Of a DNA stretch of 64,000 nucleotides, positions 41,798 to 50,201 are shown piece by piece; position 1 is the first letter of the stretch, and each line of letters opens with the position of its first letter. The stretch is from Flammeovirgaceae bacterium BBD 1991-12. GTDB taxonomy: Bacteria > Bacteroidota > Bacteroidia > Cytophagales > Cyclobacteriaceae. The notes under the pieces were generated by a model. The model was not told where the DNA came from. It was given only the letters and a program-made list of their open reading frames with translations, and did not search any database. Position numbers and translations under genes: made by a program. The DNA is taken from NCBI GenBank assembly GCA_001657315.1, contig LYSV01000009.1:1-64000 (forward strand), given 5' to 3'.

Positions 41798-42023
41798 AGG
41801 GTATTGCTGGGGTTCCATTATATTTTTCCCAGGAATAAAAAAGAGAACCCTCAGGGCTCGCCAAATAATACCTGGAGAGGTTCCTGATTTGTGGAAAACT
41901 TTCCGTTAAACTCACCATCATGCGTTTCACAATTGCGTATATTGTATGGGGTCATGCCATTAATTCCTAACAGTTGGGAGATCATGAGGTGATCACAGGG
42001 GACACCGGGTGCCTGCTCAGGGA

Positions 42024-42656
42024 ATGAAAGAAACAAAAAACAATATTGCCAGAGCCGCGCTAAAGCTTTTTAACGGCAATGGATATGTAAATGTACGTCT
42101 GCAACATATCGCCGATGAAGCTTTTGTAAGTGTAGGGAATCTGGCCTACCACTTTAGCAATAAGCAGGAGATCCTTCTGTATCTGTACCATGAGATCAAA
42201 AGGCTTCAGAAAGGCCTGCTTCATGAGCTGAATATCGTTCCTCTTTTTGAGCATCTGGACCGGCATTGGTGCAATGTTTTTGAAGTGCAAATGGAATACA
42301 AATTCTTTTACATAGATACACTGGAGATATTGCGTAGCAGCCCTTCCATTCAGAAAAAACATCAGGATCATGTGAAATGGGAAATATACCAGTTGGAACA
42401 AATGCTCAGGTTCAACCTGTCCCGGGGATCGCTCTCCGGTCCGGATGCCGGTACAGGCACGGAGCGGCTGGCCTGTTTGCTGTGGATGTGCGAAAATACA
42501 TGGTACCATCAGTCCCTCATACAGGGTAGGGAGCCCACATCTGCTTTGGAGTTCAAGGAAACGCTTTGGTCGCTGATCCGCCCGTATTTCAGTGAAATTG
42601 GTCACCAGGAATATCTGCAGGTACAGGCAATGAATAAAACGGAAAACATACTGTGA
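42024..42656 (+). CDS. TetR-family regulator, first of two upstream of the hydrogenase
   Basis: This 210-residue TetR-type regulator has an N-terminal HTH (ARAALKLFNGNGYVNVRLQH, then IADEAFVSVGNLAYHFSNK). The recognition helix SVGNLAYHF is identical to that of the regulator at 43109, so both should bind the same DNA. The C-terminal ligand domain is helical and Trp/Tyr-rich. ATG 42024 is chosen; a GTG five codons upstream is possible. Its stop overlaps a GTG-started small gene by four bases. Likely targets are the four TTAGAA-type palindromes near the hydrogenase genes. The ligand is unknown; nickel, oxygen or a metabolite are all conceivable. Confidence 0.85.
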   Translation: MKETKNNIARAALKLFNGNGYVNVRLQHIADEAFVSVGNLAYHFSNKQEILLYLYHEIKRLQKGLLHELNIVPLFEHLDRHWCNVFEVQMEYKFFYIDTLEILRSSPSIQKKHQDHVKWEIYQLEQMLRFNLSRGSLSGPDAGTGTERLACLLWMCENTWYHQSLIQGREPTSALEFKETLWSLIRPYFSEIGHQEYLQVQAMNKTENIL

Positions 42657-43015
42657 ATCAAAGGACAGTTTATATTGACGCCAGGTGTTACGAAACCCTC
42701 CTGGACTTCATGAATAATCATGACAAGGACGATGCTCATGGAGAGATCATAGACCTGGACCTTTTTTATAATGATCAGTGGCTTCTGGATAGCGCAGTTA
42801 TTGATCATGTAGTGGCCAGAGAGGGGAACTGGACCATCTTTCTGGTGTTTGCCTGGGTCAAATTTCCACTGAAGCTGATATGCAGGAAGATCACCCGGTG
42901 CCACACATTGCAGAAGGCCAATCTTACTGCCCAATACATGCGCAGGTTGGCTGCCAAGGACCAAAGAGGTACACTGCGTATACAAAAAAAGGATTTTACA
43001 GAATGCCTGAACTAA
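42653..43015 (+). CDS. hypothetical protein between the two TetR genes
   Basis: I do not recognise this 120-residue protein. It begins with a GTG overlapping the stop of the preceding TetR gene (GTGA), which suggests translational coupling. There is no ATG until about 20 codons inside. The N-terminal half is acidic (NNHDKDDAHGEIIDLDLFYN). The middle has the hydrophobic segment WTIFLVFAWVKFPLKLIC, possibly a strand pair or a membrane-associating helix. The C terminus is basic with two Cys. Coupling to a regulator suggests a partner or sensor for it. It could also be an unrelated passenger. Confidence 0.55.
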   Translation: MNQRTVYIDARCYETLLDFMNNHDKDDAHGEIIDLDLFYNDQWLLDSAVIDHVVAREGNWTIFLVFAWVKFPLKLICRKITRCHTLQKANLTAQYMRRLAAKDQRGTLRIQKKDFTECLN

Positions 43016-43108
43016 TAAACCAATCAAAATGGTAACTTCGTCTGTCGTTGTACCAGCATAGCACGGGTCCTGATTGTGGATCTGTTGCAGCGGCAGCATC
43101 ATAATGTT

Positions 43109-43720
43109 ATGGCGACAAGGGAAAAGATCATAGAGGCATCTATCGAATTGTTCAACGAACAGGGATTCGCCAACGTACGGTTACAACATATTGCAGACCG
43201 CACCGGTATAAGTGTTGGCAATCTGGCCTACCACTTCAGGAACAAGGAAGCCATCATCACGGAGGCCTACCGTACCATCGGAGAAGAACTACAGAGTATA
43301 CTGTCACAATTCCGGTCCCAGCCCAACTTCCTTGACCTGGAAAATCAGCTCACCGACTTCTATTGCTTCATTGTCAGGTTCCCTTTTTACTTCATCGATA
43401 TTGTGGAGATAAAAAGAAGCCATCCTCACCTGCACCAGGAAAGACAGCAGTTTATCATGCGTATGATCATTCAGATAAGAAAACGGTTTGAATACAACGT
43501 AAACAGGGGTGTACTCAAACCTGAGCTCTTTCCCGGACACTACGATCAGGTGGCACATACCATTTGGATGGTCATCACCTTCTGGGTAACTCAATCGATC
43601 ATCCGGGAAGAAACCAATGATATCGGGTCGTTCAAATCAGTCATCTGGTCACAGATCTATCCCTTCTTCACAAGTAAGGGCATCCAGGAGTATAAAAGAC
43701 TGGTTGTCGTGCGCAGTTGA
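43109..43720 (+). CDS. TetR-family regulator, second of two upstream of the hydrogenase
   Basis: This 203-residue TetR-type regulator is paralogous to the one at 42024. HTH: EASIELFNEQGFANVRLQH, then IADRTGISVGNLAYHFRNK. The ligand domain is also related (FYFIDIVEIKRSHP versus FFYIDTLEILRSSP). The ATG at 43109 (MATREKIIEAS) is preferred over an upstream GTG at 43076. The first TTAGAA-N3-TTCTAA palindrome begins ten bases after its stop. The hydrogenase small subunit starts 155 bases downstream. It probably represses or activates the hydrogenase operon. Divergence of the C-terminal halves suggests different ligands or heterodimers. Confidence 0.87.
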   Translation: MATREKIIEASIELFNEQGFANVRLQHIADRTGISVGNLAYHFRNKEAIITEAYRTIGEELQSILSQFRSQPNFLDLENQLTDFYCFIVRFPFYFIDIVEIKRSHPHLHQERQQFIMRMIIQIRKRFEYNVNRGVLKPELFPGHYDQVAHTIWMVITFWVTQSIIREETNDIGSFKSVIWSQIYPFFTSKGIQEYKRLVVVRS

Positions 43721-43730
43721 ACCCTTTTGA

Positions 43731-43745
43731 TTAGAATCTTTCTAA
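43731..43745. promoter_or_regulatory. TTAGAA palindrome 1 upstream of hydrogenase small subunit
   Basis: TTAGAATCTTTCTAA pairs TTAGAA with TTCTAA across three bases. It is the only one of the four sites with a 3-base spacer; the others have six. It lies 10 bases after the second TetR stop. Confidence 0.6.
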
Positions 43746-43769
43746 ATTAAGCAGTGCGCACGGATTGGA

Positions 43770-43787
43770 TTAGAAAACTTTTTCTAA
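43770..43787. promoter_or_regulatory. TTAGAA palindrome 2 upstream of hydrogenase small subunit
   Basis: TTAGAA-N6-TTCTAA, 18 bases, with centre about 40 bases from palindrome 1 and about 88 bases before the hupS start. It has the same half-sites and spacing as the sites at 49395 and 49416. Probable TetR operator. Confidence 0.72.
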
Positions 43788-43875
43788 CCTGAAATAAATC
43801 TTTAACTTACCTCTACGATTGAACATCTGCAGGTGTGTACCTGTGGAGATTCCAACTTCTTAAAATACATACACT

Positions 43876-44835
43876 ATGGCGAACCTACTTTGGCTACAGG
43901 GCGGAGCCTGTAGCGGAAATACCATGTCTTTTCTGAACGCCGAAGAACCAACAGTGGTAGAACTGGTCACCGATTTCGGTATCAATATTCTCTGGCATCC
44001 TTCCATAGGCCTTGAGATAGGCCAGCAGGTCTCCGACCTGTTGAATGATATTCTGGCAGGTAAGGTGCAACTGGATATTCTTGTGTTTGAGGGCTCACTG
44101 GTACAGGGCCCCAACGGTACGGGTACTATGAACTATTTTGCAGACCGGCCTATGATCGACTGGATCAGGGAGCTTTCAGCTGTTACTCAGTACAATGTCG
44201 CTATAGGTGATTGTGCTACGTGGGGTGGAATACCGGCAGTTCCTCCCAATCCCAGTGAGTCTACAGGGATGCAGTTCCACAAAAAGGTTAAGGGCGGCTT
44301 TCTTGGTGAGAATTATGTTTCCAAAGGCGGGCTCCCTGTGATCAACATACCCGGCTGCCCGGCACATCCCGACTGGGTAACGCAAATACTGGTGGCTATC
44401 TCCACCGGCCGTATCAAAGATGTGCTGATCGATGATTATCACAGACCTAAGACATTCTTCACTGATTTCGTACAGACGGGATGTCCCAATGTCAGAAATT
44501 TCATACAAAAGGAGGATGGTGGTTTCGGAAAGCGGGGAGGGTGTTTATTCTATGAGGTTGGATGCCGCGGACCGATGACCCGTGCCAGTTGTAACAATAT
44601 TCTATGGAACCGGCATTCCAGTAAGACAAGGGCAAATCATCCCTGCCTCGGATGTACGGAACCGGGTTTCCCTCATAATGATCTCAAAAAAGGGAGTGTA
44701 TTGAAAACAATGAAATATCTGGGAGTATGGCCGAAAGAAGTTCCTGCAGGGGAGAGCAAGCTCATGTACTACTTTAAGGCAGGTGTCGGAAAGGTCAGCC
44801 CGAGCAACAAAACATTACTGGAAGCTTCAAAATAA
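43876..44835 (+). CDS. hupS: [NiFe] hydrogenase small subunit, group 2a type
   Basis: This 319-residue iron-sulfur subunit passes electrons from the NiFe site. The N terminus LLWLQGGACSGNTMSFLNAE and GINILWHPSIGLE match cyanobacterial HupS and mycobacterial Huc small subunits (group 2a) as I know them. There is no Tat signal, so the enzyme is cytosolic. Cluster Cys are seen in GGACSGN (second Cys of the usual CxxC is Asn, as in that group), IGDCATWGG, NIPGCPAHPDW, QTGCPN, GGCLFYEVGCRGPM and PCLGCTEPGFPH. The C terminus lacks a membrane anchor. The subgroup call is from motif memory; the protein class is certain. It is followed six bases later by hupL. Confidence 0.94.
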   Translation: MANLLWLQGGACSGNTMSFLNAEEPTVVELVTDFGINILWHPSIGLEIGQQVSDLLNDILAGKVQLDILVFEGSLVQGPNGTGTMNYFADRPMIDWIRELSAVTQYNVAIGDCATWGGIPAVPPNPSESTGMQFHKKVKGGFLGENYVSKGGLPVINIPGCPAHPDWVTQILVAISTGRIKDVLIDDYHRPKTFFTDFVQTGCPNVRNFIQKEDGGFGKRGGCLFYEVGCRGPMTRASCNNILWNRHSSKTRANHPCLGCTEPGFPHNDLKKGSVLKTMKYLGVWPKEVPAGESKLMYYFKAGVGKVSPSNKTLLEASK

Positions 44836-44841
44836 ATCAGC

Positions 44842-46431
44842 ATGTCAACAAAGGAACTGAACATATCACCGGTAGGACGTGTAGAGGGGGATCTTGATGT
44901 TAAAGTATTTATGGAAGGAGGGGTGGTTACCCGCGCTCATACGCAGGCTGCCATGTTCCGTGGTTTTGAAAAGATCATGGAAGGTAAAGACCCTCAGTCA
45001 GGTTTAATTGTAACACCCAGGATATGCGGTATCTGTGGTGGATCTCATCTGTATTGCGCCTCTTCAGCGCTGGACACTGCATGGGGTACGAGGCTTTCAC
45101 CCAATGCCCTTCTGCTCAGAGCTCTTGGACAGGCCACAGAAACCCTTCAAAGTATTCCCCGATGGTTCTATGCCATCTTTGCCACGGATATGGCAAACAA
45201 GAAATTTGCCAGTAAGCCTCTTTACGATGAAGTAGTAAAGCGCTTCGCTGCCTATACGGGCACGTCTTTTCAAACGGGTGTGACTGCCAGCGGGAGGCCT
45301 GTGGAGATCTACGCGCTTTTCGGTGGGCAGTGGCCGCATTCCAGCTACATGGTGCCGGGCGGTGTAATGTGTGCACCTACACTGAAGGATATTACCAGAG
45401 CGCACGCCATACTGAATCAGTTCAGGCTGGACTGGCTGGAAACAGTCTGGCTGGGGTGCTCCATAGAACGATACATGCAGGTCCGGTCATGGGATGACCT
45501 GATGGCCTGGGTGGAAGAAAACGAATCACAGCGCAACAGTGATCTCGGTCTGTTCATTCGTGCTTCCCTGGAATTTGGCATGGACAAGTTTGGCCAGGGT
45601 GTAGGTAAATACCTCGCTTTTGGAACCTACCTGCATAAGGACCGGTACAATATACCTACCATTGAAGGCCGTAACCAGGCACTCATCAGCTCCAGCGGTT
45701 TCTACGATGGTTCGGAATACCATGTTTTTGACCACAATCGTATTCAGGAGCATGTAGACCATACATGGTTTGAAGATGTGCCTCCGGCCCATCCGTGGGA
45801 TCAGCCGCTGCCCACCCCGTTACCTTCCCAGAGCCTGGAGCATACCGACTTTAATGGAAAGTACAGCTGGTCCAAAGCCCCCCGGTACATGGAAAATTCG
45901 GCGGAGGCGGGTCCTCTGGCAAGAGTAGTTATGAATGCCAACCCGGTAAACATGGATCATCAGATCAGGGATCCTTTGTTTGGTGATATTATCAAAGATC
46001 CCGGGCCAAGTGTCTTTACCCGTGCGCTGGCCCGTATGCATGAGGCGCCACGTATTTATGAATACATTGACCAGTGGCTTTCAGAGATCGACCTTGATGC
46101 AGAGTTCTACATCAAACCGGAAGAAAAGGACGGAAAAGGATTCGGAGCTACTGAGGCCGCGAGAGGAGCGCTGGCTCACTGGATAGAAATAGAGAACGGG
46201 GTCATCAAAAACTATCAGGTGGTAGCGCCTACTACGTGGAACGTAGGCCCCAACGATTCAGAAGGCAAGTCAGGGCCTATAGAAGCGGCACTTGAAGGTA
46301 CCGAAATTGAAGATCCGCAGGACCCCGTGGAGGTGGGGATGGTGGCACGGTCGTTTGATTCCTGTCTCGTATGTACCGTACATGCCCATGATCAAAAATC
46401 GGGCAGGGAGCTGGCCCGTTTCAAACTTTAA
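44842..46431 (+). CDS. hupL: [NiFe] hydrogenase large subunit, group 2a type
   Basis: This 529-residue catalytic subunit splits H2 at a Ni-Fe(CN)2CO centre. The N-terminal nickel motif is RICGICGGSH near residue 60. The C-terminal motif is DSCLVCTVHAHD near residue 509. The cleavage site after the His would release a 15-residue tail ending ARFKL, matched by the endopeptidase encoded next. The opening LNISPVGRVEGDLDV is typical of group 2a. VTASGRPVEIYALFGGQWPHSS and PVNMDHQIRDPLFGDI are further hallmarks. The protein is cytosolic and works with hupS. Both Cys pairs are intact, so an active enzyme is expected. Uptake or atmospheric H2 oxidation is the usual role of group 2a, inferred here. Confidence 0.95.
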   Translation: MSTKELNISPVGRVEGDLDVKVFMEGGVVTRAHTQAAMFRGFEKIMEGKDPQSGLIVTPRICGICGGSHLYCASSALDTAWGTRLSPNALLLRALGQATETLQSIPRWFYAIFATDMANKKFASKPLYDEVVKRFAAYTGTSFQTGVTASGRPVEIYALFGGQWPHSSYMVPGGVMCAPTLKDITRAHAILNQFRLDWLETVWLGCSIERYMQVRSWDDLMAWVEENESQRNSDLGLFIRASLEFGMDKFGQGVGKYLAFGTYLHKDRYNIPTIEGRNQALISSSGFYDGSEYHVFDHNRIQEHVDHTWFEDVPPAHPWDQPLPTPLPSQSLEHTDFNGKYSWSKAPRYMENSAEAGPLARVVMNANPVNMDHQIRDPLFGDIIKDPGPSVFTRALARMHEAPRIYEYIDQWLSEIDLDAEFYIKPEEKDGKGFGATEAARGALAHWIEIENGVIKNYQVVAPTTWNVGPNDSEGKSGPIEAALEGTEIEDPQDPVEVGMVARSFDSCLVCTVHAHDQKSGRELARFKL

Positions 46432-46485
46432 ACTGTTGGTGGAATAGAGGCAATCTAGTGTCCAGGTGGAGAGGGTATCTTTTTT

Positions 46486-46974
46486 ATGAGTATAGTGAGA
46501 ACAGCCATAATGGGTTTTGGCAACCCTGTACGTAGTGATGATGGCATCGGTATCTATGTGATCGACCAACTGAGAACGTTGGTGGCCGATATCAGGTACA
46601 TCACACTTTTTGATATGGGTACATCCGCCTTTGAGGTACTCTTCAGGCTGAGAGGTCATCAGCGTATTGTTATCGTAGATGCTGTGGTAAATTCAGGCGA
46701 AGCGCCCGGTACACTGTTCCGGGTTCCGGCAAAGGAGGTCATGAAAGCTCCGGAGGAGGATCCTATGGTCTTCTTGCATAGTTTAAAATGGGACCAGGCC
46801 CTTTCCTATGCCAAAAAGATCCTGGGTACGGAGTACCCCGATGACATTGAGGTGTACCTGATAGCAGTTGACAACACCCGTCTGGAGGTGCAGCTTTCAG
46901 ATGAGGTAAAAACGGCAGGTGACAAGGTGATCGAATACATTCTGAAAGATCTGAAACTGAATAAGTATGCCTGA
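46486..46974 (+). CDS. hupW: hydrogenase maturation endopeptidase (HyaD/HupW-like)
   Basis: This 162-residue protease trims the C-terminal tail of the large subunit after nickel insertion. The family motif IMGFGNPVRSDDGIGIYVID carries the first nickel-binding Asp. DMGTSAFEVLFRLRGHQR and VIVDAVVNSGEAPG follow, and FLHSLKWDQAL contains the His ligand near residue 95. Length and order are standard. It lies 54 bases after hupL and overlaps the next gene by eight bases. By position it is specific for this hydrogenase. Confidence 0.92.
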   Translation: MSIVRTAIMGFGNPVRSDDGIGIYVIDQLRTLVADIRYITLFDMGTSAFEVLFRLRGHQRIVIVDAVVNSGEAPGTLFRVPAKEVMKAPEEDPMVFLHSLKWDQALSYAKKILGTEYPDDIEVYLIAVDNTRLEVQLSDEVKTAGDKVIEYILKDLKLNKYA

Positions 46975-47284
46975 TGCCGTTCATCTGAGATCTTCGCATT
47001 TGATCATCGATCGTGATCTTTCAGGCCGGTTGTTTGCCGGTTCAGCGACTGTATATGTTAGTTACAAGGCAGAGCAAAACGCTATCCTTGTCTCGGCTCA
47101 TTCCAATACCTGGTTCCCGAAGTTACACGAATCCAAAGAGTGTTTACTCAAGGATAAAGATACAAATGGGACAAAAAGCGTAACCGTCCGGGAGTTTATC
47201 ATTGACCATGACCTGGAAGATACGGACAGAAGACTTCCGGTTGAAGTACACTATGACCAGCGATTTCTAAAAGTGAGTGTTTAG
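46967..47284 (+). CDS. unknown 105-residue hydrogenase-associated protein
   Basis: I do not recognise this 105-residue protein. It overlaps the endopeptidase gene by eight bases, so it belongs to the same operon. It is largely beta-stranded and polar: LIIDRDLSGRLFAGSATVYVS, then NAILVSAHSNTWFPKLHESK, SVTVREFIIDHDLEDTD and LPVEVHYDQRFLKVSV. It has one Cys only and no membrane segment. It might be a structural or assembly partner of the hydrogenase or an unrecognised electron-transfer adaptor. A weak hairpin with a short T-run follows its stop. Confidence 0.65.
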   Translation: MPDAVHLRSSHLIIDRDLSGRLFAGSATVYVSYKAEQNAILVSAHSNTWFPKLHESKECLLKDKDTNGTKSVTVREFIIDHDLEDTDRRLPVEVHYDQRFLKVSV

Positions 47285-47301
47285 TGCAGAAACCATGTTC
47301 T

Positions 47302-47325
47302 ACCGGGCAATAAACACCGGTTTTT
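47302..47325 (+). terminator. weak terminator or attenuator-like hairpin
   Basis: A 5-bp stem ACCGG/CCGGT with a 10-base loop is followed by TTTT. It lies 17 bases after the 105-residue gene and before the leader reading frame at 47409. It is too short to be sure; partial read-through would set hydrogenase against maturation gene levels. Confidence 0.4.
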
Positions 47326-47408
47326 GTTGTAAATTTAACTTGCGATCCGATAAGAAATAATCTCTCAAACATAACCCGTTCATAATGTTTTCCTTACGAA
47401 GGAGATAA

Positions 47409-47468
47409 ATGAAGTATCGCAGCCTCTGGGAAGGGGAGATAGGTCCTTTAGAAGGACATAACCAATGA
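47409..47468 (+). CDS. possible 19-residue leader peptide
   Basis: A short frame encodes MKYRSLWEGEIGPLEGHNQ. Its ATG follows GAAGGAGATAA, a textbook Shine-Dalgarno site, uncommon in Bacteroidota. The stop codon is 30 bases before the TPR protein start and 14 before that gene's own Shine-Dalgarno site. It may couple or tune translation of the TPR-hypA pair. No homologue is known to me. It may equally be a chance frame behind a ribosome-like site. Confidence 0.4.
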   Translation: MKYRSLWEGEIGPLEGHNQ

Positions 47469-47482
47469 ATGATGATCAAAGA

Positions 47483-47489
47483 AAGGAGG
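47483..47489 (+). promoter_or_regulatory. strong ribosome-binding site fixing the TPR gene start
   Basis: AAGGAGG lies nine bases before ATG 47499. It favours that start over the in-frame ATGs at 47469 and 47472, which would place the site inside the coding region. Confidence 0.75.
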
Positions 47490-47498
47490 TGTAACACT

Positions 47499-48980
47499 AT
47501 GTTTACCATTTGTACTTTTAAGAATATTAGTAAAACGGCCGGAGAAGCCCTTGAGTATCTTGGTGAAGTCATCAGATTTGATCTGCTGGAAGATACGATC
47601 CCCGGATCATCAGGGATCCCTTATCTTATCCTGGAAGAGGACACTATCCGATGGCCTCACAAATGGCATAATCAGGAGCCTCCTGTATTGTTTCCACCTA
47701 CTTCATTAAACAAAAACGCTCTAATGGCCATAGCCCTGACCAAGCTCGGGCACTATGATCTTGCTCTGAAGTACACTACCGACCCGGACCTTGAAATTAT
47801 TATCCGGTGTTTCAAGTACCTTACCGAGCGTGAGGGGCTGCCAGATCTTACATGGGGTTATGATTATTATGGCAATCACAACAGAGCGATCCTTTACCAT
47901 TATACCAGAAAGACTGATAATGGTTCATCTCCGGCAGAGTTGTATGAGATGGCGCTGGCGATGGCTCCCGATCCGGAGCTCGCCTCGTTTACGGCGCGTC
48001 ACTATGGGGTTTATTTGTTTGACCGTGGCCATGTGGAGCATGCAGAGGAACTACTGAGAAACCAAATAATGAATGAAGCCATTTCCGAAGATGCTCAGTA
48101 TACCCTTAAGTTCGACCTTGTCAGTGTGTTGGCCAAAAAGCTGGCCGTACCCTATGATCAGCAACTCATTGCTGAATTGAAAACCCTGATAGGGGAGACC
48201 CTGGAGTTTTACGAAAGCCGTGGTATGGATGTTCAGGCTGCTCTGCTACTGGCTGAGGCCTCTGAAGTGGCTAACATTGAAGAAAACTATACAGAATCAT
48301 TAGGTTACATCAACCGGGCTATAGCTACCTATCGGAGAGAGGAACTGACGGAGTTTCTTGCCAATGCATTCTTCCGAAAAGGGACATTGTTGTATACCTG
48401 GGCACAAAATGGTAACCCGCAGTTCTTTAAATCGGCGGCAGAAACCTACCAGGAGGCTCTCAAAACCTTTAAAAAGCATACCTCACCAGCCGTATTTGCA
48501 GAAATACATCATAACCTCGGTGTGATCTATGCGGAAATGCCTACAGATCCGAAACAGGAAGGTATTATGGCAGCAGTATCTGCCAGCTCCTTTAAAGAGA
48601 GCCTGGAATACTTCAGTAAAGATGGGTTTCCCTACAATTATGCCATGATCACCAACAATTATGCAAACGCATTGATGAAATATCCTGCTGCAAGGAATGG
48701 CGACAACTTTGAAAAGGCGATCTACTATTTCAAGGAATCGCTGGAAATACGAAATGCCGGAAAATATCCATTGGAGCGCGCCCATACCATATTGAATTAC
48801 CTCGAAGCATGCTGGAGGGTACATAATATAAACAGCGGAATGGAGCGTGTGCGCTACAGGGACATGGTCAGGAAGGCACTTGAAGTAAAAAAGCTCACTA
48901 CGGATACTGAATTGATCACTCAGGCAGAGGAGCACCTCAAAAAACTAAAAGAGCTGAGTAGGATTTTGACGGGCTCCTGA
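47499..48980 (+). CDS. cytosolic TPR-repeat protein of the hydrogenase operon
   Basis: This 493-residue all-helical protein has no signal peptide. Residues about 30-75 form a unique N-terminal part (EVIRFDLLEDTIPGSSG, then RWPHKWHNQEPPVLFPP). From about residue 75 onward are TPR-like helix pairs: NALMAIALTKLGHYDLALKY, ESLGYINRAIATYRREEL, AAETYQEALKTFKKHTSP and KAIYYFKESLEIRNAGKYP. It is followed three bases later by hypA. I recall TPR proteins in other group 2a hydrogenase loci but cannot check. It may chaperone the large hydrogenase complex. The function is not proven. Confidence 0.8.
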   Translation: MFTICTFKNISKTAGEALEYLGEVIRFDLLEDTIPGSSGIPYLILEEDTIRWPHKWHNQEPPVLFPPTSLNKNALMAIALTKLGHYDLALKYTTDPDLEIIIRCFKYLTEREGLPDLTWGYDYYGNHNRAILYHYTRKTDNGSSPAELYEMALAMAPDPELASFTARHYGVYLFDRGHVEHAEELLRNQIMNEAISEDAQYTLKFDLVSVLAKKLAVPYDQQLIAELKTLIGETLEFYESRGMDVQAALLLAEASEVANIEENYTESLGYINRAIATYRREELTEFLANAFFRKGTLLYTWAQNGNPQFFKSAAETYQEALKTFKKHTSPAVFAEIHHNLGVIYAEMPTDPKQEGIMAAVSASSFKESLEYFSKDGFPYNYAMITNNYANALMKYPAARNGDNFEKAIYYFKESLEIRNAGKYPLERAHTILNYLEACWRVHNINSGMERVRYRDMVRKALEVKKLTTDTELITQAEEHLKKLKELSRILTGS

Positions 48981-48983
48981 GCT

Positions 48984-49328
48984 ATGCATGAGGTATCGTT
49001 GATCCGGAATGTTTTTCGCACCCTCGAGCATGAATTTGGAGAAGAGGAACTGGGCTGTTTACAGCAGATCGATCTTAAGGTGGGGGCACTTTCCAATGTA
49101 GAACCTACGCTGATACAAAATGCCTTTGATGCTGTAACCCAGGATGAAAACAAATACACAGATGTTGCGCTCGTTATAAATGTAGTTCCCGTAAAAATAA
49201 AATGTGAGGTCTGTGGAGAGGTATCCGAAGTGCAAAATAATTTGTTCAAATGTTCAAATGGCCACCCCTCGGGAAATCTCATTCAGGGAACAGAGTTGTT
49301 AATAGAAAAAGTTCATTTTGCAGAGTAG
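48984..49328 (+). CDS. hypA: hydrogenase nickel metallochaperone HypA
   Basis: This 114-residue HypA delivers nickel to the hydrogenase precursor together with HypB. The N-terminal MHE nickel site is intact (MHEVSLIRNVFRTLE). The zinc domain starts with CEVCGE near residue 75. The second Cys pair is altered: the text reads FKCSNGHPSGN, with Gly then His where the fourth Cys is expected, so the zinc may be bound by three Cys and one His. The C-terminal QGTELLIEKVHF is typical. It closes the first hydrogenase transcription unit, and the next 153 bases hold two TTAGAA palindromes. Confidence 0.93.
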   Translation: MHEVSLIRNVFRTLEHEFGEEELGCLQQIDLKVGALSNVEPTLIQNAFDAVTQDENKYTDVALVINVVPVKIKCEVCGEVSEVQNNLFKCSNGHPSGNLIQGTELLIEKVHFAE

Positions 49329-49394
49329 GCCTTGATATGTGAGCCGGAACTGTTCGATTGTAAAAAACATGGCTGAAGTCCGATTTGCATTGTT

Positions 49395-49412
49395 TTAGAA
49401 AAAAAATTCTAA
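49395..49412. promoter_or_regulatory. TTAGAA palindrome 3 upstream of hypB
   Basis: TTAGAA-N6-TTCTAA, all A in the spacer. The centre is 21 bases, two helical turns, from palindrome 4. Probable TetR operator shared with the hupS promoter region. Confidence 0.72.
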
Positions 49413-49415
49413 TCA

Positions 49416-49433
49416 TTAGAAAAGCTTTTCTAT
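49416..49433. promoter_or_regulatory. TTAGAA palindrome 4 upstream of hypB
   Basis: TTAGAA-N6-TTCTAT contains the perfect 16-base palindrome TAGAAAAGCTTTTCTA and sits 48 bases before the hypB start. One outer base differs from the other sites. Confidence 0.72.
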
Positions 49434-49481
49434 ATTTTGCCTTTTTAGTATCTTCCTTATTCCATAACAACCTAACCATCC

Positions 49482-50201
49482 ATGTCTGTAGATAAATCAA
49501 CCAAAGCAGCACGGGGGAGTGTACAATGTGACAACTCTTCCTTTAACCTTCTCAAGGCCAACGATTTTGTGGCTGAGAATATAAGAAAGAAGATGGCTGA
49601 GCAGCGCATTATGCTCATCAACATCACTTCTTCAGCCGGCAGCGGCAAAACCACACTACTGCAGGAAACAGCAAAACGGATCAGTGATCAGGTGAAGATG
49701 AAAGTGCTGGTGGGTGATCTCGAGACTGAGCGGGATGCTGACAGAATAAAAGAGAGCGGCGTAGAGGCATTACAGATCGTGACCGGTGGTATCTGTCATC
49801 TGGAGGCCCAGATGGTGTGGCAGGCCATGGAGCAGATCGAGCTGGACGGTGTGGAGTTATTGTTCATTGAAAATGTAGGGAATCTGGTATGTCCTGCTTC
49901 CTTTGATCTGGGGGAGGATTACCGCGTAACGCTGATGGCCACTACTGAGGGGGACGACAAGCCAAAGAAATATCCCAGAATGTTCCTGACCAGTGATATG
50001 ATGCTGGTTTCAAAATCCGACCTGCTGCCATACCTGCCTTTTTCCGTTGAAGCAGTGACAAAGGATGCCAGGGACGTTAATGCTGAAATAGAAGTGATCC
50101 AGGTCTCCGGACTCACGGGAGAAGGGATGGACGCCTGGTGTGAATGGCTAATGAACAAGGTCAGGGAAAAACGGGTAGCTTCAGAGACAGCTACTATCTG
50201 A
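49482..50201 (+). CDS. hypB: hydrogenase maturation GTPase HypB
   Basis: This 239-residue GTPase drives nickel insertion into the hydrogenase large subunit. P-loop: INITSSAGSGKTTLLQET near residue 47. Next are LVGDLETERDADRI, the metal-site GGICHLEAQMV near residue 107, ENVGNLVCPASFDLGE near residue 130 and the guanine-specificity motif VSKSDLLPY. The N-terminal nickel-binding Cys motif or His stretch found in some HypB proteins is absent. Two TTAGAA palindromes precede it, so it likely heads the second transcription unit. Its 3' end overlaps the longest possible hypF frame. Confidence 0.95.
   Translation: MSVDKSTKAARGSVQCDNSSFNLLKANDFVAENIRKKMAEQRIMLINITSSAGSGKTTLLQETAKRISDQVKMKVLVGDLETERDADRIKESGVEALQIVTGGICHLEAQMVWQAMEQIELDGVELLFIENVGNLVCPASFDLGEDYRVTLMATTEGDDKPKKYPRMFLTSDMMLVSKSDLLPYLPFSVEAVTKDARDVNAEIEVIQVSGLTGEGMDAWCEWLMNKVREKRVASETATI

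Follow-up and report, generated by a model that had tools for sequence, protein, structure and literature searches.

A palindrome predicted to be the shared operator of two TetR regulators at a [NiFe] hydrogenase locus of Bacteroidota

The hydrogenase locus and its palindromes

The stretch of DNA analyzed in this work (64,000 nucleotides (nt) of contig LYSV01000009.1 from Flammeovirgaceae bacterium BBD 1991-12, hereafter the window) contains a [NiFe] hydrogenase locus preceded by two genes of TetR-type regulators, and a palindrome, TTAGAA-N6-TTCTAA (hereafter N6), which we predict to be the operator of these regulators. The genes are arranged in the order TetRa (42009..42656; 215 amino acids, aa), orf120 (42653..43015; a small conserved protein between the two regulators), TetRb (43076..43720; 214 aa), hupS (43876..44835; hydrogenase small subunit), hupL (44842..46431; large subunit), hupD (46486..46974; maturation protease), the conserved orf105 (46967..47284), a gene for a conserved 503-aa protein without a Pfam match that is TPR-like by eye only (47469..48980), hypA (48984..49328), hypB (49482..50201), hypF, hypC, hypD and hypE, with those from TetRa to hypB on the plus strand; downstream of hypE follow an NHL-repeat protein and then a transporter weakly resembling NicT. 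The assignments of hupS and hypB come from their open reading frames (ORFs) together with family matches, those of hupD and hypA from family matches, and the names of hypF, hypC, hypD and hypE from reading the ORFs. HupL is far closer to the PDB chains 7uus and 7utd (Hydrogenase-2; E about 1e-200), which we take to be Huc structures, than to other hydrogenases in the PDB (E of 1e-58 or worse), and therefore group 2a (Huc) is a fair name for its predicted type.

The N6 palindrome is found three times in the locus. An exact copy at 43770-43787 (TTAGAAAACTTTTTCTAA, predicted operator 1) lies in the hupS promoter region; another exact copy at 49395-49412 (TTAGAAAAAAAATTCTAA, predicted operator 2) and a copy with one base changed at 49416-49433 (TTAGAAAAGCTTTTCTAT, predicted operator 3) lie in the hypB promoter region. 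A variant with shorter spacing, TTAGAA-N3-TTCTAA (hereafter N3), is exact at 43731-43745. The earlier note on this DNA had claimed that these four palindromes precede hupS and hypB, that they are confined to the two promoter gaps, and that the pair at hypB is separated by two helical turns. All three statements hold: exact halves with any spacing from 0 to 9 have no further occurrence in the window, and the starts of the two hypB-side sites are 21 bp apart. If two mismatches are allowed, N6 appears also at 454 and 44307, as chance predicts.

TetRa and TetRb are paralogous (37% identity over 196 aa, E=1.3e-41), both score above the cut-off for PF00440 (TetR_N) and PF13972, and they are the sole matches to PF13972 in the genome (E of 0.001). 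The AlphaFold2 (AF2) model of TetRb is nearly all helical, with a predicted local distance difference test (pLDDT) score of 93.5, and its best fold match is the TetR-family regulator 3nnr, which, like the further match 3rh2, is a TetR-like protein without a stated role. In a tree of the TetR proteins from the loci compared below, the first genes form clade a and the second genes clade b, both well supported. The two clades share the consensus NVRLQ[HQ]IAD plus SVGNLAYH, a combination that the remaining 19 TetR_N matches listed for the genome lack. As the earlier note had observed, both proteins carry the recognition helix SVGNLAYHF, which it took as an indication that both may bind the same sites. 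As evidence this likeness is weaker than it seemed. Sister TetR proteins from three other loci (L213-L215) contain SPGNLAYHY or SPGNLAYHF and share only the second part of the motif; the 9-18 kb of sequence read around them contain no operator at up to two mismatches, and neither does that of L216 (SPGNLTYHY). The recognition helix alone therefore does not predict the site, and we downgraded the argument that a shared helix proves a shared operator.

The sister TetR genes of L213, L214 and L215 lie beside genes resembling those of acyl-CoA carboxylase and related enzymes (names from reading the ORFs), a hint that TetR proteins of this group may respond to a ligand of the acyl-CoA type.

The N6 palindrome in other hydrogenase loci

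Our comparison covered hupS loci found in 18 of the 291 genomes of the order, the source genome included, and the best 80 of 338 further loci found, a selection that leans to close relatives. Together they make 99 loci (80 fetched, 18 from 17 genomes, and the window), eight of which were dropped before counting (six near-copies and two without the hupS start or upstream DNA), leaving 91. An operator was called when a site within 200 nt of hupS had at most two mismatches in 16 positions to the 18-bp consensus TTAGAAAAnnTTTTCTAA. By this rule a predicted N6 operator precedes hupS in all 48 loci with a linked TetR gene, where shuffled sequences lead one to expect 0.35, and in 3 of the 43 loci without one, where 0.1 is expected. 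A recheck with tblastn found no linked TetR gene in any of these 43 loci; ten of them have less than 4 kb of upstream DNA, so that a linked gene could lie off the contig, and the three operator-bearing loci are among the other 33. One of the three, L035 (genome G109), has TetRb, the orf120 homologue and TetRa on another contig, and the site in L092, with two mismatches and at -199, may be a chance match. This comparison shows that the predicted operator is linked to the TetR genes.

Three side observations concern individual records. In G109 the TetRb-orf120-TetRa group (L217, 5697-8020) lies apart from the hydrogenase, beside a gene resembling the one that closes the locus of the window, presumably BFN. 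The fetched records are all from Bacteroidota except L079, titled Rickettsiales bacterium NP5, which holds a Fulvivirga-like hydrogenase locus with both TetR genes and may be mis-binned, or the locus may have been transferred. In L041 (G161) hupS is split into two open frames by an in-frame stop.

Relatedness among the loci reduces the number of independent observations. In a quick HupSL tree, 32 of the 43 loci without a linked TetR gene fall into one group, and the TetR label changes seven times. Supported branches provide six independent contrasts between the presence of TetR and that of the hupS operator, four or five of which agree, none opposes, and one or two are equal; scoring the L092 site as chance, as was done in one variant of the contrasts, leads to the same result as the other variant.

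The predicted operator is also confined to hydrogenase loci to a degree that chance does not explain. The exact N6 palindrome occurs twice in the 8.59 Mb source genome, both times at the hydrogenase locus, with 0.57 occurrences expected. Among the 11 genomes that possess the module or TetRa (the source genome, G115 and nine others), 19 of the 20 sites with at most one mismatch in 16 positions lie in hydrogenase loci, the exception being in G259, and a reversed-pattern control finds 6 sites in the same genomes. (The site at 49395, with two mismatches to the consensus, is not one of the two that the source genome has at this threshold.) In eight genomes with hupS that lack the module, 3 sites were found, none in a hydrogenase locus (control: 12), and six genomes with related TetR proteins and without hupS have 4 sites with at most one mismatch. 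By the looser criterion of exact TTAGAA-N6-TTCTAA halves, ten module genomes have 21 sites, 17 of them in hydrogenase loci, and the eight genomes without the module have 5, none of them in such a locus. Comparison thus shows that the predicted operator is dedicated to hydrogenase in the source genome and in the relatives compared. The case of G115 extends this pattern: this genome has no hupS match at 1e-60, and in its locus L212 (1357-11844) a clade-a TetR gene stands in line with hypF-hypC-hypD-hypE, opposite a different [NiFe] hydrogenase, which in the PDB is matched best by HofK/HofG (5aa5). The sole operator of that genome, at up to one mismatch, lies in the gap between the TetR-hyp genes and the hydrogenase, so that a regulator and a site of this type seem to act there on a hydrogenase of another class.

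The third member of the module is equally associated with the regulators, as a homologue of orf120 is found upstream of hupS in 47 of the 48 loci with a linked TetR gene and in 1 of the 43 without. The protein has no Pfam match at E of 0.01 and no PDB sequence match at E of 1; against NCBIfam, only 2 of 40 members gave a match, a weak one to adenylate kinase (best E=0.019). Its AF2 model is of middling confidence (pLDDT 74.8) and, at E of 0.001 or below, resembles none of the solved folds. That orf120 is a signal partner of the TetR proteins is our guess. Many other loci also have a diverged orf120 homologue in the interval that separates orf105 from the gene of the 503-aa protein.

The N3 palindrome, the two regulators and alternative explanations

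The earlier note treated the four palindromes as matching operators. This stands for the three N6 sites, which form one element, and the N3 site is probably a different one. N3 lies within a predicted Fur box (43729..43747; GATTAGAATCTTTCTAAAT) with 3 mismatches in 18 positions to the consensus ATTTAGAATnATTCTAAAT. Boxes within this limit were found in 15 of the 48 loci with a linked TetR gene (0.1 expected) and in 17 of the 43 without (0.25 expected), and they do not track TetR on the tree; their independence of the TetR genes is shown by this comparison. In the source genome, where the exact N3 form occurs four times, once at the hydrogenase locus, 22 places match the Fur consensus with at most 3 mismatches, versus 7 for the control. 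Seven of these loci were read to families: at the box or immediately behind it, four have a TonB-receptor gene and one has feoA-feoB, while two (L179 and L182) have neither; for eight further loci the ORFs were listed only. The consensus ATTTAGAATnATTCTAAAT is identical to the Fur box published for Riemerella anatipestifer, a 19-bp element (ATTTAGAATTATTCTAAAT), and purified Fur of that species bound target promoter fragments that contain such boxes (PMC5609570).

We also note that L091, L094, L099, L101, L114, L149 and other loci, which are without TetR and mostly from Flavobacteriaceae, have Fur-like boxes at about -80 to -190 of hupS.

Two alternatives concern the nature of the palindromes themselves. 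The gaps that contain them are AT-rich (65-67%, versus 53% for the window), as would be expected if the sites were chance palindromes of AT-rich DNA or hairpins of terminators; however, a dinucleotide model predicts 0.004 exact N6 sites per 64 kb, the sites are conserved with similar placement among loci, and they are dedicated genome-wide. With both the dinucleotide model and the shuffles giving far fewer sites, we rejected a chance origin, the probability of which we regard as negligible. A single type of operator with flexible spacing would explain why the half-sites TTAGAA and TTCTAA are identical in N3 and N6. Nonetheless, N3-type boxes are about as common in loci without TetR as in those with it, are distributed on the tree independently of TetR, occur at iron genes in the same genome, and agree over the longer consensus with a box that was tested by gel shift in Riemerella (PMC5609570). 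The presence of N3-type boxes in TetR-less loci led us to reject the single-operator view, which we consider improbable. Probably the N3 palindrome belongs to a separate, predicted Fur box, and the window contains three predicted TetR operators rather than four.

As for the two regulators, the hupS operator is retained whatever TetR gene is present: it is found in 33 of 33 loci with both genes, 3 of 3 with TetRa only (all from one lineage), 12 of 12 with TetRb only, and 3 of 43 with none. Among culturable relatives, Flavilitoribacter nigricans DSM 23189 possesses both genes, and the stretch compared from Chitinophaga costaii A37T2 showed TetRb alone. The operator of the maturation genes behaves differently. 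In loci with hypB in the stretch, a site before hypA/hypB was found in all 23 with TetRa, in 1 of 7 with TetRb only and in 1 of 36 without TetR (L080); the difference between the first two groups has a Fisher p of 1.2e-5, ignoring relatedness. A cruder rule, which takes all loci with more than 6 kb of downstream DNA, gives 23 of 30 loci with TetRa and 1 of 11 with TetRb only, the seven TetRa loci without a hyp operator being those without hypB in the stretch. On this cruder set, tree-aware contrasts agree in 3-5 of 8 cases and oppose in none (p of 0.06-0.25).

These data bear on whether both proteins are needed and whether they are interchangeable. The earlier note suggested that they may bind the sites singly or as heterodimers. 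An obligatory TetRa-TetRb heterodimer would be in line with the joint presence of both genes in 33 of the 48 TetR-bearing loci and with the symmetry of the half-sites; against it, 15 of these 48 loci have only one TetR gene in the stretch (including L154 and L156, with TetRb only and less than 4 kb upstream, hence weaker cases), and a search of whole genomes reveals a single TetR of this kind in G181 (clade a) and in G059, G195 and G216 (clade b), all of which keep the operator. Loci with either gene alone keep the hupS operator, therefore heterodimers are not needed, though they may form where both proteins occur, and their being obligatory is hardly plausible. A division of labour, with TetRb acting on the hupS operator and TetRa on the hyp operator, with little exchange and separate signals, is a more serious competitor: it would account for the bias of the hyp operator towards loci with TetRa, it agrees with the position of the lone TetRa of G115 in line with hypFCDE, and clades a and b are old. 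It is at odds with the hupS operator of the loci with TetRa only, with the identical sequence of the hup and hyp operators and the common DNA-reading consensus of the two clades, and with the TetRb-only locus L143, which has an exact operator at +8246, counted by neither of the two rules for the hyp gap; the tree-aware contrasts give it no significant support. We regard this division as possible and as the less probable arrangement. Very probably TetRa and TetRb share N6 as their predicted operator. The earlier proposal of a two-regulator switch that controls structural and maturation genes through one operator accordingly fits the N6 sites, by comparison of loci, and not the N3 site.

Proposed regulation and its relation to known systems

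Most TetR proteins are repressors, while some activate, and the position of the operator relative to the promoter is relevant to this choice. In 26 of 51 loci aligned on the operator nearest to hupS, a distance of 14-16 nt separates the end of the operator from the start of the -7 motif TAnnTTTG; where operators follow one another before hupS, 22 of the 26 spacings are 20-24 bp. With the T set at -12 following PMC6847099, the hupS operator spans about -45 to -28, and therefore a bound TetR would most likely block the polymerase. An activating role would find some support in the location of the operator where a -33 element would be, and in the fact that its right end shows no TTTG in any of the 26 loci whose -7 box follows at 14-16 nt. 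However, the -33 element is generally weak in promoters of Flavobacterium johnsoniae, as stated in the same paper (PMC6847099), which made us downgrade the reading of its lack as a sign of activation, and the centre of the operator, near -36, better fits occlusion. We consider activation unlikely.

On these grounds we propose that the N6 palindrome TTAGAAAAnnTTTTCTAA would serve as the operator of the local module TetRa-orf120-TetRb, dedicated to hydrogenase, and that a dimer of either TetR could sit on it. Bound at the hupS promoter, TetR would block the polymerase and keep hupSL off until a signal frees the operator, and the second pair of sites would keep hypBFCDE off likewise, with TetRa tied to the operator of the maturation genes more than TetRb. 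The separate upstream box, which we infer to be read by Fur, would link the hupS promoter to iron. To this model as a whole, i.e. a shared N6 operator of the TetR proteins, repression, dedication to hydrogenase and a separate Fur box, we assign a probability of roughly 0.78, judging from sequence comparison.

Several observations weigh against it. L080 has operators at both hupS and hypB, yet no TetR gene within 10 kb upstream, and stray exact N6 sites exist in module genomes (one in G259, two in G031, one in G010). The sign test on the six contrasts for the hupS operator gives a p of 0.06-0.13 and cannot reach 0.05 at this number; the contrasts being too few for significance, the case rests jointly on linkage, exactness, placement and dedication. 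With respect to the promoters, 25 of the 51 loci have no consensus -7 box at 14-16 nt, both -7-like elements of the window, read by eye on the plus strand, are weak and degenerate (TAACTTAC at 43803..43810 and TATCTTCC at 49449..49456, 15 bp past operators 1 and 3, respectively), and in 25 hyp gaps the spacing from the last listed operator to the -7 element is not fixed. As for Fur, the consensus was written after inspecting these same upstream regions, the box of the window is weaker than the best boxes of the genome, and the genome encodes six Fur-family proteins (PF01475 over the cut-off), any of which may be the reader of the box.

The proposed arrangement resembles TetR repressors that act on a neighbouring operator in the helix-turn-helix (HTH) and fold, in the gene lying beside its target and in the palindrome over the promoter. 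It differs from them in having two paralogues on one operator, a [NiFe] hydrogenase with its maturation genes as the targets, and a third conserved gene. ScbR and ScbR2 of Streptomyces form a paralogous TetR pair that shares operators, and they are comparable as two related TetR proteins able to compete for the same sites; their targets and signals are different, and kinship with the proteins described here was judged only from a match of the TetR HTH part to the ScbR model of NCBIfam, far under the model cut-off. In Cupriavidus, the hydrogenase and hyp genes have a control system of their own, as is proposed here, which consists of an H2-sensing regulatory hydrogenase (HoxBC) and a two-component system (HoxJ/HoxA) with an activator; no genes of the HoxBC/HoxJ/HoxA type were seen among the ORFs of the locus, where no dedicated search for them was run. 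The huc genes of Mycobacterium smegmatis encode a hydrogenase of the same group with controlled expression, on which GylR acts indirectly, the direct regulator being unidentified according to PMC13098282, in the main text of which the word TetR is absent. The 19-bp Riemerella box (PMC5609570) resembles the one predicted here from sequence, which stands before hydrogenase genes. None of the listed matches in the open-licence literature described a hydrogenase of Bacteroidota under the control of a TetR regulator. The system thus appears, as far as we have seen, to be a regulator-operator system of a known kind that is new for this enzyme.

It is tempting to view TetRa-orf120-TetRb as a portable sensor-switch that would regulate aerobic [NiFe] hydrogenases directly across much of Bacteroidota and move between hydrogenase classes (2a, and HofKG-like in G115), with orf120 as the signal partner, the TetR proteins competing on one operator, and Fur adding control by iron; this broader scenario is speculative, and we hold it to be rather doubtful in its full extent. 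Hydrogenases of group 2a allow aerobic bacteria to use trace H2. Our results supply candidate regulators, an exact operator, a promoter geometry and natural strains with a single regulator, by which the control of these enzymes becomes testable in Bacteroidota, and the predicted Fur box offers a possible link between hydrogenase control and iron.

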